DNA of 64,000 bases from Brevibacillus panacihumi W25 (GTDB taxonomy: Bacteria > Bacillota > Bacilli > Brevibacillales > Brevibacillaceae): contig NZ_KI629782.1 of assembly GCF_000503775.1 (NCBI RefSeq), positions 744,001 through 808,000 of the forward strand, in the 5' to 3' direction. Made by a program: the position numbers and the translations under genes. Under the pieces are notes generated by a model. It ran no database searches. It saw only the letters and a program-made list of their open reading frames with translations, and was not told the origin of the DNA. Numbering within the stretch: position 1 is the stretch's first letter; every line of letters begins with the position of its first letter. Shown here piece by piece: positions 58,595-64,000 of this stretch.

Positions 58595-59140
58595 CTATCT
58601 ATTCTGTGTCTGTTTCGTCCGGTAAAATTCATTAAACAACTTCATTAATGCCCGCTTTTCAATTCGTGAGACGTATGAACGAGAGATGCCAAGTTCCCGA
58701 GCGATCTCCCGCTGCGTCTTTTCTTTGTCCTGGTCCAATCCAAACCTGCCGATGATGACTTCTTTTTCACGCTCGTCGAGGATGTGGATGTGCTGGTAGA
58801 TCTTGTTCGACTCCAGCTTCAATTGCACCGCATCCACTACTTCATCGGTCTCTGTCCCGAGTACGTCTATAAGCGTGATTTCATTGCCCTCTTTGTCAGT
58901 TCCGATCGGATCATGCAGGGAAACGTCCTTCTTCGTTTTTTTCAGACTGCGGAGGTGCATCAGGATTTCATTTTCAATACAACGCGCCGCATACGTCGCC
59001 AGCTTCGTTCCCTTATCCACCTGGTAGCTCTCAATTGCCTTGATCAGACCAATGGTCCCGATGGAGATCAGGTCTTCACTGTCTTCTCCGGTGTTCTCGA
59101 ATTTCTTGAGGTTGTAAACAAGAACCGATGTCATCCTCAT
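58595..59140 (-). CDS. sigK: Sporulation sigma-K, 3' part only (split gene)
   Basis: The C-terminal part of SigK, the late mother-cell sigma factor. Homology starts at [20 protein letters not shown] (near 59107) and continues through [30 protein letters not shown] and region 4 [38 protein letters not shown] to the normal end. The N-terminal part (about 65-70 residues, including the pro-sequence) is missing. The frame runs 11 codons further upstream into foreign DNA. The gene cannot make functional SigK until the intervening element is cut out. A terminator follows. Confidence 0.93.
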
Positions 59141-60737
59141 GCTGAAGAAACTGTTGGCGTTTTAACTCATCTAGTGCTCCGACTGCAGTAATCTGTACTT
59201 CGTTCCCGTCGTAGCGAATAACAACTTCATCAACCAGGGTCTCCAGGATATGTCGCTTCTCCTCAAGGGTAAGCTCGTCGCCGGCGCTCTCGATAAAGTT
59301 TCGGACAGCCTTGGAGACCTCGGCAATCCGATTGGCCGATATTTCCTTCTCCGCTTGTTCTGACAACTGCTTTTCGTACCCGGCAAGCTCTTGCTCCAAC
59401 GACTTTAGTCCGGCATTAATCTTTTGCATTTCGGTAAGCATCTCCTGCTCATCAATGACCTCCCGCTTGAACATGATTTTGATTTTTTCCTTTTCCTTCT
59501 CCTTCTGCTCCAGCTGACGTTTGATGTGGTCCGCGGCGGATTGAAGTTCCAGGTTAATCTCATTCGATTTGCTTTGCAGCCGCTCCATATAATCATCGGG
59601 ATTAGACAATGTCTCCAAAATGAGCTGCCAGACGTAATGATCCAACATATCGGCGCGCAACGTTTGAGTCGGGCACTTCTCAACTCCTTCACCATACTTC
59701 TTTGGGAAGAGGTTTGGACATCTGTAGCAGGTGTAACGGATCTTTTCTCCCGTTTCTTTATTTACCCGGCCTGTATAAGTAGTTGCTTGCCACATTCTGC
59801 CGCAATGTCCACACCGGATCATGGATTTTAACAAATACTCATACTTTACATTTCCTGACCGTTTCATGTTTTTCTCTTTCTGCACCTGGGCTAATTCAAA
59901 CAGTTGCGGGTCAATGATACTTGGCACGGTAACCTCGATCCAGTCCTTTTCCTCGCGAAAGGCATATGTTTTTTTCGGTGTGCCGTTCTTGGTTTTCTCC
60001 CCGCGAATCTTCCGGGTTTCTCTACGATTGTAATAGAACTTGCCGATGTACACCTCAGAAGTAAGAACCCTTCTAATGGAACTGGCGCTCCAGTTCCTGC
60101 TTTCCCCTCGTTTGGGTACCGCCCCCAACGCATAGAGTCGATCCCCGATTTCACGAAGCGTATAGTTCTCATGAACATACCAGTGGTATATCTTCTGGAC
60201 AAATTCGGCTTCCTGCGCATTGATAATCAAGGTATTTTCATGAAGATCATATCCATAGGGAGCCACACGCATGGGCATGATCTTCTTATCTTTTTCCACC
60301 GCTTTGAGTCTTCCGCGTACCGTCCGCTTCTTGATTAAAGACAACTCGTATTGTGCTATGGAACTCATCAGGTTGAAAAAAAGCTGCCCTTCCGGCGTAT
60401 TCCGGTATTCCGTGTCCACGAACACCAGCTCGATATTGCTCCGCTCCAGCTCACGGCAAAGGATTAATTTATCCGTCAAGTCCCTGGTCAACCGGTCGGG
60501 GTGGGTAACAATCAAGCGACGGACCAGCCCTTGCGCAACATCTTGTCTGAATTCATTCATGGCGGGCCGATCGATATCTTCACCTGTGAATCCTTCTTCG
60601 CGATAAACTTTGATCATGGATTCGGGAATTCCCAAGTCTTTCGCTTTCCGCATGCAAATCTCAATTTGTGCATCAAGGCTTGTGCCCTCTGATGCTTGCA
60701 TGCCTGTAGAAACCCTTGGATAAATGGCCGTATACAT
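59076..60737 (-). CDS. Large serine recombinase (SpoIVCA-like)
   Basis: A 553-residue site-specific recombinase. The catalytic resolvase domain (about 1-150) starts [19 protein letters not shown], with the active serine in RVST, and HPDRLTRDL. Then come the recombinase domain (about 160-290), a zinc ribbon (CGHCGRMW, then CYRC), a coiled coil (about 400-485) and a C-terminal part [21 protein letters not shown] 60737 starts [10 protein letters not shown]. Its last 11 codons lie in sigK DNA and overlap the sigK frame. By position and fold this is the enzyme that excises the element to restore sigK. Confidence 0.93.
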
Positions 60738-60799
60738 GGAGGTTCGCTCTTCTCCTTTCTGATCACTATCACTTTCCAGTATGGACAAAGAGAGAAACA

Positions 60800-60826
60800 A
60801 AAAAACCGGCTTATTCAGTCGGTTTC
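60800..60826 (-). terminator. Terminator between the 50-residue ORF and the recombinase
   Basis: AAACCGACTGAATAAGCCGGTTTTTTTG on the minus strand (here cited as AAACCG paired with CGGTTT, positions 60800-60826) with seven T. It includes the small gene stop codon, so the recombinase likely has its own promoter in 60738-60800. Confidence 0.65.
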
Positions 60827-60963
60827 AAGATCAAACGCTTTAGGATGTAATCGATAACGGCATTTTTGGCCTCTGCAGCGGATAAGGTGTTTGAGACTTG
60901 AACTGAATCACTACATAAAGTATGAGGCACATATACGATTTTGATTGTCGGCATTCGCTCCAT
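60811..60963 (-). CDS. Small protein, 50 residues (candidate excision factor)
   Basis: A 50-residue basic-tailed protein (MERMPTIKIVYVPHTLCSD to KRLILKPTE). ATG 60963 has a TTGAGGTGAAA site seven bases before it. No known domain was recognised. Its size and place right next to the recombinase fit a recombination directionality factor, such as SprB (58 residues) of SPbeta, but there is no sequence support. The frame is open up to 61011. Confidence 0.5.
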   Translation of the reverse strand: MERMPTIKIVYVPHTLCSDSVQVSNTLSAAEAKNAVIDYILKRLILKPTE

Positions 60964-61007
60964 ACTTTTCACCTCAATACACCTTATTCCGTCTGCGGTT
61001 TGTCCTA

Positions 61008-61766
61008 TCACAAGCGCATGGTGTTTTGGATATACTTGAACTCCGTTTCCATAATTCGAACAATAGCCGATTCATGATCCGCCCCAATGAATGTCCAGTA
61101 CCGGTGCCCAGGTACAACAGATTGGGTAATGAATCCTGACCATGTTAAGGACTTCGATTTTAGAGCGGACATGAGTTTGTCCAAACTTAATAGGTCATTT
61201 TGATATAGATCAACGACGATCACATCGGTTCGTGATTCTAGACGGATATAACATTCTTGATCCGTGTTTGTCTGGATGACATATCCTTTTACATCTCTAT
61301 TACGATCTTCAGCCATTCTCAATAACGGAATCAGGTCTTCCATACAAGTTAAAGCTATCCCGCTAAAATCATAATTTTTAAAGTTCCATCGCTCCATAAC
61401 AAGCATATCCTTATAAGCCCAATCAAAAGGAACACGGTGGATGATGCCAAATTGGGCCAGTAGCTCATTGCTGAATCTCCTAGATTTCAAAGGGTTCGTT
61501 AAGTCGAAAATTGTAGAAGAAGATTCCGAAAAATCTCCCAGCAAGAGTGTTCTTAACTCCGCTGTCCTTAAACTAAAGGCATGTATCAATGCTTTTCGAC
61601 GATAAGGCAAGGATAGTTTCCGTAGCAGAATACCAAAAGTTATTGGGTCAGTAGCTGCCAGTTCTTTCACCTCATACCAGTCTCGATCATGCCTGCTGAT
61701 ATAAGTGATTTCGTCTATTTCACCATGGATGAATTTTAAGGCTAGTTGAAGAAGGTCTTCCTTCAA
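61008..61766 (-). CDS. Unknown protein of the element, 252 residues
   Basis: A soluble-looking protein with no recognised family. The N-terminal third is helical (MKEDLLQLALKFIHGEIDEITYIS), the middle has DWAYKDMLVMERWNFKNYDF, the end is mixed. No catalytic motif or membrane segment stands out. It is upstream of the 50-residue ORF on the same strand, so it may be in the same transcript. Confidence 0.6.
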   Translation of the reverse strand: MKEDLLQLALKFIHGEIDEITYISRHDRDWYEVKELAATDPITFGILLRKLSLPYRRKALIHAFSLRTAELRTLLLGDFSESSSTIFDLTNPLKSRRFSNELLAQFGIIHRVPFDWAYKDMLVMERWNFKNYDFSGIALTCMEDLIPLLRMAEDRNRDVKGYVIQTNTDQECYIRLESRTDVIVVDLYQNDLLSLDKLMSALKSKSLTWSGFITQSVVPGHRYWTFIGADHESAIVRIMETEFKYIQNTMRL

Positions 61767-61821: not shown

Positions 61822-61910
61822 CTCCACAAATGGAGCCGATTCTTGTTTCTTTCGGCCGAAATCCTCGCATAACCCGAAAACCCAACGAGCTTTTGCTCCA
61901 TTTGTGGAGC
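61822..61910. repeat. Paired palindromes in inverted orientation
   Basis: CTCCACAAATGGAGC (61822-61836) and its exact reverse complement (61895-61909) lie 58 bases apart. Each arm is itself a palindrome (CTCCA-4-TGGAG), and between them is TTTCGGCCGAAA (61850-61861), a 12-base perfect palindrome. It lies between the unknown gene and the tyrosine recombinases and may be their binding site, an end of the inner element, or an operator. Confidence 0.7.
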
Positions 61911-62041: not shown

Positions 62042-62167
62042 ATGGATAACGATCAGAATATTAAAGATATCGATATTTTGGGATTCATGTATTCGGATCA
62101 TTGGAAGCAAAATGCGAAAACTATTGCAGAGATTGCTTCTTATGAGAACTCTACTTCGCAAGAATGA
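62042..62167 (+). CDS. Small acidic protein, 41 residues
   Basis: ATG 62042 with a GGGAGAG site encodes MDNDQNIKDIDILGFMYSDH and on to SYENSTSQE. It overlaps the start of the next recombinase gene. No known family. Possibly a small regulator or a leader that sets translation of the recombinase. Confidence 0.5.
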   Translation: MDNDQNIKDIDILGFMYSDHWKQNAKTIAEIASYENSTSQE

Positions 62168-63560
62168 TTTACAAACTGTCCCAACTGGCAATCATGATAT
62201 TAAGAGTCTTAGTTGGGAGAAGGTGCTCACGTTCTTGAATACCATGTATGCATTTCGTTGGCCTGAAGAGGACGTCGAGATATGTTCACCAGAAAGTGGT
62301 TCTCTTGCATTAAATGAATGGATCTTTTCAACCCAGATTCAAGGCAAAATCTTTGCCCCCGTGCTACTGGATTACCTTGATAATAAAAAGTCGATCAAAT
62401 CCACCAGCTACTTTTCTTTGATGGAATACGCACTAGAGCTCATTGATTTTTTTAAAACCCGTTATGGGCTTGATGCTAGATCCATTCAAAACAAAGAATT
62501 GGCAAATAAAGATGCACTTATTAATTTCATTGAGCATTCTTCCTACAATTTCGTTCAACGTGACATGATTCTAGCAATAGCTCGAAAATTAATCTCTAAT
62601 GGGTTCGAATTAAAGAAATCAACAAACGGTATTTCTACAAAAAAGAGGACTCAAGATATAAATCATCCCGCTATCACTGCGCATATTAAAGATTTACACC
62701 GTTCAGGAGTCAAGGAAAAAAGCGTTAACGGTAAATATAAAATCAGTTACGCCCTATTTTTAAACTGGTTGAATAAAACATACGTTCAGTTCCAGAGCAC
62801 TTCATGCGACGCATTACCATTGTCATTAGTTACTGAGGAGCATCTACTCGAATTCAAGCAATATTTACTCCGTTTAGAAAAGAAAGGGATCTATATCAAG
62901 CAAACGGTTAGCAATAGTTTTTACGATATCCGATTCCTTCTGGCTAACCTCTATAAATTGGGCTGGCTTGCTAAAGACATAACAATGGATGTTACAGGAA
63001 TCCCGTACGAGAGATACTATTATCGCGAGTTACCAACAGATGCTGAACTCCAGTGTTTTTTTCATAATATCCAACTCTATTCTGATCATCCCACATTGGA
63101 ACTGGCAGCCTTTGGGTTGATGCTTTGTCTTGGTTTGCGAATTCATGAAGTTGCTAACATTCGCTATCAGGATATCAATGTCGAGAATAGAACCATCTCT
63201 GTCTTCGGAAAAAACGAGAAATCGGCCATTCTACCCTTACCTGATCCGCTACAGAATTACTTTCACAAGCTTGTTGTCAACAAAAGTCAGGATGTCCATC
63301 TGTTTGGAAACAACAGCCAATCAACTATTCGCAAATTAAGGGCACAGTACAAACTTTATTCTTTTGTCTCGGGATGGAAATATCCGGGGGGTCCCCATTT
63401 ACTGAGGCACACTTTCATCAGCAGGTTGTCGGAACGTACAGATTGCCCGTCACAATTGCTTATGTACTTGGCAAGGCATGATCGGCCAGAAAATACTGCA
63501 CGATACGTCCACCGGAGCTCCAATCAATTAACAAATGCTGTAAACAAAATCAATTACTGA
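62112..63560 (+). CDS. Tyrosine recombinase
   Basis: A 482-residue integrase. The catalytic residues are seen: Arg in GLRIHEVANI, HxxR in GPHLLRHTF, His/Arg region ARHDRPENTARYVHRS with the tyrosine nucleophile. The N-terminal 180 residues are an extra domain. The start may be ATG 62112 or ATG 62142. Codon use is AT-rich compared with the chromosome around it. A second recombinase gene starts 11 bases after it. Confidence 0.88.
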   Translation: MRKLLQRLLLMRTLLRKNDLQTVPTGNHDIKSLSWEKVLTFLNTMYAFRWPEEDVEICSPESGSLALNEWIFSTQIQGKIFAPVLLDYLDNKKSIKSTSYFSLMEYALELIDFFKTRYGLDARSIQNKELANKDALINFIEHSSYNFVQRDMILAIARKLISNGFELKKSTNGISTKKRTQDINHPAITAHIKDLHRSGVKEKSVNGKYKISYALFLNWLNKTYVQFQSTSCDALPLSLVTEEHLLEFKQYLLRLEKKGIYIKQTVSNSFYDIRFLLANLYKLGWLAKDITMDVTGIPYERYYYRELPTDAELQCFFHNIQLYSDHPTLELAAFGLMLCLGLRIHEVANIRYQDINVENRTISVFGKNEKSAILPLPDPLQNYFHKLVVNKSQDVHLFGNNSQSTIRKLRAQYKLYSFVSGWKYPGGPHLLRHTFISRLSERTDCPSQLLMYLARHDRPENTARYVHRSSNQLTNAVNKINY

Positions 63561-63570
63561 GGAGGTTCCC

Positions 63571-64000
63571 ATGCCTAAAGTAATCAACGATACAAAGTAT
63601 ACCGAACTTAAAGAACAACTGAATCAGCTGTTATGTCTTTATGGTCCAGAGAAAATGCGGCAAGTTATGGAAACCTTGCCTGTCCAGACACAGACAAAAC
63701 CTAATATGCCCCTGGCAGTGCGGAACGTTTCATTTCTCGAAGCCGTTGATGCTTTCTATCAAAGCAGCAAGTTTTCTGGACTTAGCCGGACCACGCAAAC
63801 AACGTATCGGTCAGAGATGAAACTTTTCCAGCAACATGTCAAGGAAAAGTTTGGCGACGATCCGCAGTTTGAAAAGGTAACAAACGGCGAATTCTTGTCT
63901 GACTATATTAAGCTTAATGAGGATCCTAATACAAAAGCCAAGAAGTCTTCCTTTCTTCGCACCTTCATAAAGACCACATACAAAATATTTTATGGCCATC
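63571..64000 (+). CDS. Second tyrosine recombinase, N-terminal part
   Basis: Reads from ATG 63571 off the right edge (143 residues seen). GAGGAGG ribosome site. VSFLEAVDAFYQSSKFSGLSRTTQTTYRSEMKLF is typical of an integrase core-binding (SAM-like) domain. The catalytic part is beyond the window. Tandem with the previous recombinase. Confidence 0.75.
   Translation, partial: MPKVINDTKYTELKEQLNQLLCLYGPEKMRQVMETLPVQTQTKPNMPLAVRNVSFLEAVDAFYQSSKFSGLSRTTQTTYRSEMKLFQQHVKEKFGDDPQFEKVTNGEFLSDYIKLNEDPNTKAKKSSFLRTFIKTTYKIFYGH

Follow-up and report, generated by a model that had tools for sequence, protein, structure and literature searches.

A tyrosine recombinase trio and a divergent regulator-like gene at one end of a sigK-splitting defence island in Brevibacillus panacihumi

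The skin and other sigK-intervening elements of B. subtilis and C. difficile carry the serine recombinase SpoIVCA at their end, and the sigK frame is restored through short cores. These elements are usually described as prophage-like. A related arrangement is the gerE gin element of Bacillus cereus ATCC10987, which, in the sections available of its description, targets gerE and is excised in sporulation (PMC5595907). The available sections of the GInt description report three tyrosine recombinases and a fourth gene at the island end, with variable cargo downstream of the operon (PMC5385486). In a limited search of the open-access literature, sigK elements containing a trio of tyrosine recombinases or BREX were not found described, and no match was found for three tyrosine recombinases in Paenibacillus or for two intervening elements in sigK. 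The locus described here combines a split sigK with such a trio.

The split sigK gene and its island

The window is a stretch of 64,000 nucleotides of Brevibacillus panacihumi W25 (genome label G000, assembly GCF_000503775.1), C1:744001-808000 of contig NZ_KI629782.1; coordinates without a contig prefix are those of the window. A TIGR02846 search of this genome found the sigK 3' part at C1:802622-803122 and, on the same strand but outside the window, the 5' part at C1:862387-862584, and it found no intact sigK. The 3' part occupies 58595..59140 on the minus strand and comprises the codons from about 66 on. An AA core at this end of the element (59106..59107, which is C1:803106-803107) has its partner at C1:862397-862398, and fusion of both cores generates HIVKKF in frame and a sigK of 236 aa. 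Relatives of the same genus have this sigK protein uninterrupted, at 97-100% identity, and 17 of the 39 family genomes contain one full-length sigK open frame. The positions of the two sigK parts and of their AA cores, together with the frame restored on joining, thus define a sigK-intervening element of ~59.3 kb, with a SpoIVCA-type recombinase present. The original prediction had placed the tyrosine recombinases inside a developmentally excised element, and the second sigK part and the restored frame bear out their place in an element whose excision would restore sigK.

The attP half-site GTTGTAAACAAGAACCGATGTC (59111..59132) has an inverted copy at the opposite element end, and inverted copies of GAC(A/G)TCGGTTC(T/G)TGTT(T/C)ACAAC lie immediately internal to both cores. 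Joined element ends (attP) are present at 1588-1760 of the P. naphthalenovorans contig NZ_FNDY01000056.1 (L085), where 127 of 141 positions are identical to the attP predicted from the window and the sequence is palindromic across about 50 bp; this stretch carries the trio too. The joined form therefore exists in a public assembly. We infer a circle; the contig might also derive from some other arrangement. If excision is mother-cell-specific as in the B. subtilis skin, the whole 59-kb island would be lost from the mother cell and retained in the spore.

The cargo of the island is rich in defence genes. The 3' side of the trio holds McrC and McrB, an HD protein and two MrfA-type helicases. Further right are an OLD-like protein and then a BREX type III set, in which PADLOC matched DrmD/BrxHI-II, BrxA, PglZ, PglXI, BrxC and BrxF. 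A UvrD-like protein (an AddAB-like pair by reading) and a WYL regulator follow, with HIRAN, Fic and SWIM proteins toward the sigK 5' part. No phage structural genes were recognised among the ORFs read over C1:800001-860000. The trio islands L088, L092, L093, L096 and L095, located in sigK or elsewhere, have a common backbone of a WYL regulator, an AddAB-like pair, a HIRAN protein and a small ORF of about 105-160 aa, not every island having all of these.

Further rearrangements of sigK were seen in other genomes. At G187:C4:968625-1056876 (L073, L112-L115) the gene lies in four pieces (codons 1-66, 67-112, 113-142 and 143-end). The three intervening elements measure about 15, 4 and 68 kb, and every one of them has a large serine recombinase of its own. 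When the pieces are joined at three short cores, they yield a 233-aa match, 80.7% identical to the sigK of the window. By coordinates, sigK is in three pieces at G003:C1:2482440-2492565 and in P. naphthalenovorans (G410). At G011:C1:2903001-2963000 (L065-L067) the sigK 3' part, the serine recombinase and X lie in inverted orientation with respect to the sigK 5' part, and a transposase pair adjoins. The BREX genes of this element are retained and the trio is missing; owing to the inversion, simple excision would be unable to restore sigK.

The trio, gene X and the intergenic region between them

The original prediction had noted two adjacent tyrosine recombinases at the window edge and proposed extending the sequence to look for a third; all three were found. 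TR1 (62112..63560, plus strand) has 482 aa and a PF00589 match with an E of 1e-16; TR2 (63571..64000, plus strand, running on to window-equivalent 64698) has 375 aa and an E of 1.8e-26; TR3 (C1:808695-809636, window-equivalent 64695-65636) has 313 aa and an E of 8e-26. TR2 and TR3 overlap by 4 bp, and TR1 and TR2 are separated by 10 bp in the window and overlap by 4 bp in B. fluminis. The catalytic R-K-H-R-H-Y set is present in all three window proteins. All six positions are kept in the 25 rows of TR2 relatives, and those of TR3 are kept in 24 of 24 rows except for the first histidine (H in 22). TR1 relatives keep them in 22 of 22 rows except for the first histidine (H in 20, Y in 2) and the second (H in 13). 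An AlphaFold2 model of P. validus TR1 (mean pLDDT 79.5) places helical domains at 87-183 and 209-305 ahead of the catalytic domain.

The small overlapping ORF that the original prediction had pointed out (62042..62167, plus strand) is the TR1 N-terminus: one extra base near 62167 separates these first 41 codons from the rest of the gene. This base is absent in P. validus, P. cookii, Paenibacillus sp. MSJ-34 and Paenibacillus sp. P25, all of which read through in frame, so the ORF is no separate gene. The G011 fragment also lacks the base, and the spot is deleted in G015. The extra base may be either a true frameshift or a sequencing error; as a one-base frameshift of TR1, it means that the trio may be inactive in W25. 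The dN/dS values of X, TR1, TR2 and TR3 are 0.07-0.30 for the pairs where they were computable, and judged by these ratios the four genes are under purifying selection. The non-coding tail 3' of TR3 is identical at 92 of 113 positions (81%) between this genome and L086, compared with 43% for TR3 third positions.

The trio faces three genes of the minus strand. The large SpoIVCA-like serine recombinase (59076..60800) contains Resolvase, Recombinase and Zn-ribbon domains and is accompanied by the small gene orf66 (60811..61011, GTG start). Gene X (61008..61766), which is regulator-like and divergent from the trio, has a 4-bp overlap with orf66. This overlap is 4 bp in six and 7 bp in two of the eight clade-A loci examined. 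In clade A, X-orf66-serine recombinase and the trio are read in opposite directions out of one intergenic region. In G003, which has no trio, orf66 adjoins the serine recombinase and X is absent; thus, orf66 is the companion of the serine recombinase, whereas X accompanies the trio. orf66 is a candidate directionality factor. Two homologues of X match HTH_3 weakly, with E 0.018 and 0.089, neither reaching the Pfam cut-off, and a search of the PDB with the model of X (mean pLDDT 66) gave no match below E 0.001. X may be a DNA-binding regulator, a weak assignment.

The intergenic region contains two palindromes, CTCCACAAATGGAG at 61822..61835, an operator candidate, and CTCCATTTGTGGAG at 61896..61909, 74 bp apart from start to start. 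The pair CTCCANNNNTGGAG between X and TR1 is kept in all nine clade-A loci examined with a spacing of 73-75 bp, while the spacers are changed; one site ends in A in L084 and L085. The stretch from X to TR1 showed no sigma-70-like promoter, and an Rfam scan of L021:5700-10100 gave nothing but a sub-threshold Histone3 match. The palindromes had been taken as one end of an element whose other end should appear on extending the sequence. No further copy was found at another end, and the pair sits between divergent genes.

Other sets of tyrosine recombinases occur in the same genome. At G000:C6:126001-184000 (L116-L118), five to six Xer-like tyrosine recombinases lie ~9 kb apart on one strand, among repeated blocks and IS66/IS21-like copies; several of these Xer-like proteins outscore RIT proteins with the TR1-3 profiles. 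A DUF6262 gene comes after a second tyrosine recombinase trio at G000:C5:456284-460929 (L024:8284-12929), and this order of genes is GInt/Tn554-like.

Distribution and history of the module

At E 1e-30, TR1 relatives were found in 3 of 39 family genomes and in 4 of 398 class genomes, that of the window included. Scanning the TR2 alignment against a genome collection of 84,980 species yielded 28 loci, which belong to Paenibacillus, Brevibacillus, Cohnella and Aquibacillus. All three recombinases matched in 26 of them, L081 and L084 being truncated by contig ends. X was detected in 22 of the 28 and not in L093, L094, L097, L099 or L101. In the plasmid collection, TR1 and X had no match at the limits set. 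X and TR1-TR3 constitute a rare four-gene module.

Comparison of the insertion sites in relatives, as the original prediction had proposed, located the trio in elements at two sigK sites and also outside sigK. A serine recombinase adjoins the trio in 10 of the 28 loci, and in 7 of these the sigK 3' part lies on its far side. A fragment of the sigK 5' part lies 0.9-2.7 kb after TR3 in 5 of the 28; in L099 it comprises residues 65-117 only, and the same genome also has an intact sigK. In the elements at codon 117, the serine recombinase adjoins the 3' part in G415, G419 and G420 and lies ~12 kb away from it in G416. Thus, the trio and the serine recombinase lie toward opposite ends of these elements. 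Two codon-66 elements have neither trio nor X, G003 (recombinase 78% identical) and G009 (54%), and no TR1 match at E <= 1e-30 was obtained in many family members whose element lies near codon 117. Outside sigK elements, a phage-type integrase is often near the trio, as in P. typhae, P. elgii (neighbour assigned by Pfam) and Cohnella pontilimi. Broken copies of the trio were found in B. invocatus (G015), P. sediminis and Paenibacillus sp. P25. The B. invocatus locus was initially seen as a cargo-free form, which was rejected; its many deletions identify it as a decayed copy.

TR2 is 99% identical to that of the window in P. validus and 97% in P. cookii, where sigK is intact and the island lies elsewhere, its core bearing AAGAAATTG. 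The TR2+TR3 tree of 24 rows excludes the broken L079, L082 and L083, the cut L084 and the near copies L089 and L094, and P. cookii L077 was labelled as codon-66 group by its backbone, though this locus is outside sigK. The tree requires 2 changes for the codon-117 group and 4 for all three groups, vs. 11.2 with shuffled labels. In L093, L094, L097 and L099 the trio unit has a common left edge and four different left flanks. Judged from sequence comparison, the module is found in elements at two sigK sites, with more than one entry, and outside sigK. The tree and the common left edge with differing left flanks suggest modular entry into the elements.

The ends of the module were also examined. 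Fourteen end pairs of the trio were tested for terminal inverted repeats and none scored above the shuffled maximum; no direct repeats were found at the trio ends, and there was no second copy of the conserved TR3 tail as the other module end. Clade A has a sharp right edge at C1:809877, which was initially taken as the element end. Since other loci continue ~50 bp into AT-rich DNA, this claim was dropped.

Interpretation and comparison with known systems

The reading favoured here, with moderate confidence, is that X and TR1-TR3 form a resident module at one end of the sigK-splitting defence island. In the proposed mechanism, the serine recombinase, probably with orf66 as its directionality factor, would excise the island in the mother cell, and X would bind the palindrome pair and control both divergent operons. 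The trio would be dispensable for sigK excision, because G003 and G009 split sigK at codon 66 without it. Its own role would be that of the GInt and RIT sets, the transfer of the module, or of the whole island and its defence genes, from one site or host to another. We read the genes as a GInt/RIT-like mobility module of putative activity, co-regulated with the developmental recombinase. The recurrence of the recombinase set at island edges suggests a shared mobility module and not a stray transposon. For clade A, where the trio always has the same position, it could alternatively be a stably inherited passenger.

A wider proposal is put forward tentatively, as a conjecture that may well prove wrong: Paenibacillaceae sigK islands would be dual-recombinase defence islands in which an X-controlled bidirectional region switches between serine excision and trio-driven island movement or cargo swap. 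If this is true, one common switch would govern development and defence-gene turnover, and the intergenic region common to both recombination systems would link development and mobility. The sigK islands contain BREX, McrBC or DarTG-like genes together with the conserved recombinase module; on this basis sigK would be a reusable docking site for defence islands, whose defence genes the mother cell would lose and the spore line would retain.

The reading nearest to the original prediction, in which the sigK element was entered by a self-contained transposon of RIT or Tn554 type that is simply nested there, is unlikely, and it is the alternative that survives best. Three adjacent recombinases, the TR2/TR3 overlap and the RitA-like helical domains in the TR1 model agree with it, as do the entries into different sigK elements and other islands and the constant left edge beside unlike flanks in L093, L094, L097 and L099. 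However, none of the 14 end pairs has terminal inverted repeats, no TnpC is present, and TR1-3 are no closer to RitA/B/C than to the Xer-like proteins of the same genome. Nesting is doubtful also because the clade-A trio faces X-orf66-serine recombinase across a common divergent intergenic region, with the 4- or 7-bp overlap conserved in 8/8 loci. The trio therefore looks built in there, although the tree and the left edges suggest modular entry into the elements.

It is improbable that the trio belongs to the sigK excision machinery or sets its direction. In favour, the trio sits within a few kb of the element end at two sigK sites and, in clade A, opposite X-orf66-serine recombinase. However, G003 and G009 at codon 66 have neither trio nor X, the many family members with codon-117 elements named above have no TR1 match at E <= 1e-30, and the codon-117 elements that carry the trio have the serine recombinase toward the opposite end. 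Slightly less probable still is that the trio is decaying, functionless baggage of the islands. The TR1 frameshift in the window and the broken copies described above point that way, whereas the low dN/dS, the almost invariant catalytic residues and the preservation of the palindromes and of the 113-base TR3 tail point to the contrary. A defence or plasmid-handling cassette, as further island cargo, is highly improbable despite the defence-rich surroundings in the loci read, as PADLOC gave no match to TR1, TR3 or X and only an E of 0.024 for TR2 to a candidate family.

Among known systems, Tn554 resembles the trio in having several tyrosine recombinases in series. The identification as Tn554 was rejected, since a search of the surrounding ORFs with Pfam found no TnpC/DUF6262-like gene adjoining the trio; the C5 set of the same genome has a DUF6262 gene, whereas the trio has none. 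The likeness to RIT elements, as far as their descriptions were available (PMC3414803, PMC8138268, PMC10214605), is closer and stands in part. RIT likewise places three tyrosine recombinase genes side by side in one direction, slightly overlapping, and the TR1 of P. validus is modelled, like RitA, with two helical (core-binding) domains before the catalytic domain. However, the terminal inverted repeats of about 34 bp described for RIT were not found for the trio, and in comparison with these descriptions the trio has the extra gene X and is carried in islands with a second recombinase. One-to-one homology to RitA, RitB and RitC, tested against nine pHG1 proteins, was rejected; Xer-like proteins of the same genome score higher.

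In the parts of the GInt description available (PMC5385486), the recombinase trio and fourth gene likewise lie at one island end with cargo downstream. The fourth gene of GInt is the small helix-loop-helix GinD, whereas X has about 250-285 aa and is often divergent; no ORF of at least 75 aa that could be ginD-like lies between TR3 and McrC. As described there, GinC is without the first Arg, whereas TR1-TR3 all keep the catalytic set. No flanking repeats of GInt type were found, and the one joined form observed is that of the serine recombinase sites.

The island resembles skin in its insertion in sigK, its terminal serine recombinase and the short-core joining that restores the frame; unlike skin, it has defence cargo (McrBC, BREX type III), the codon-66 site and a tyrosine trio beside the serine recombinase. 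Its nearest biological parallel, going by the available sections of PMC5595907, is the B. cereus gerE gin element, which likewise interrupts a gene, is not a phage, and carries three recombinases along with restriction-modification genes. There the recombinases are all of the serine type, whereas the island here has a tyrosine trio and lies in sigK. By the features tested, the trio matches none of Tn554, RIT and GInt, yet it probably works like RIT and GInt.
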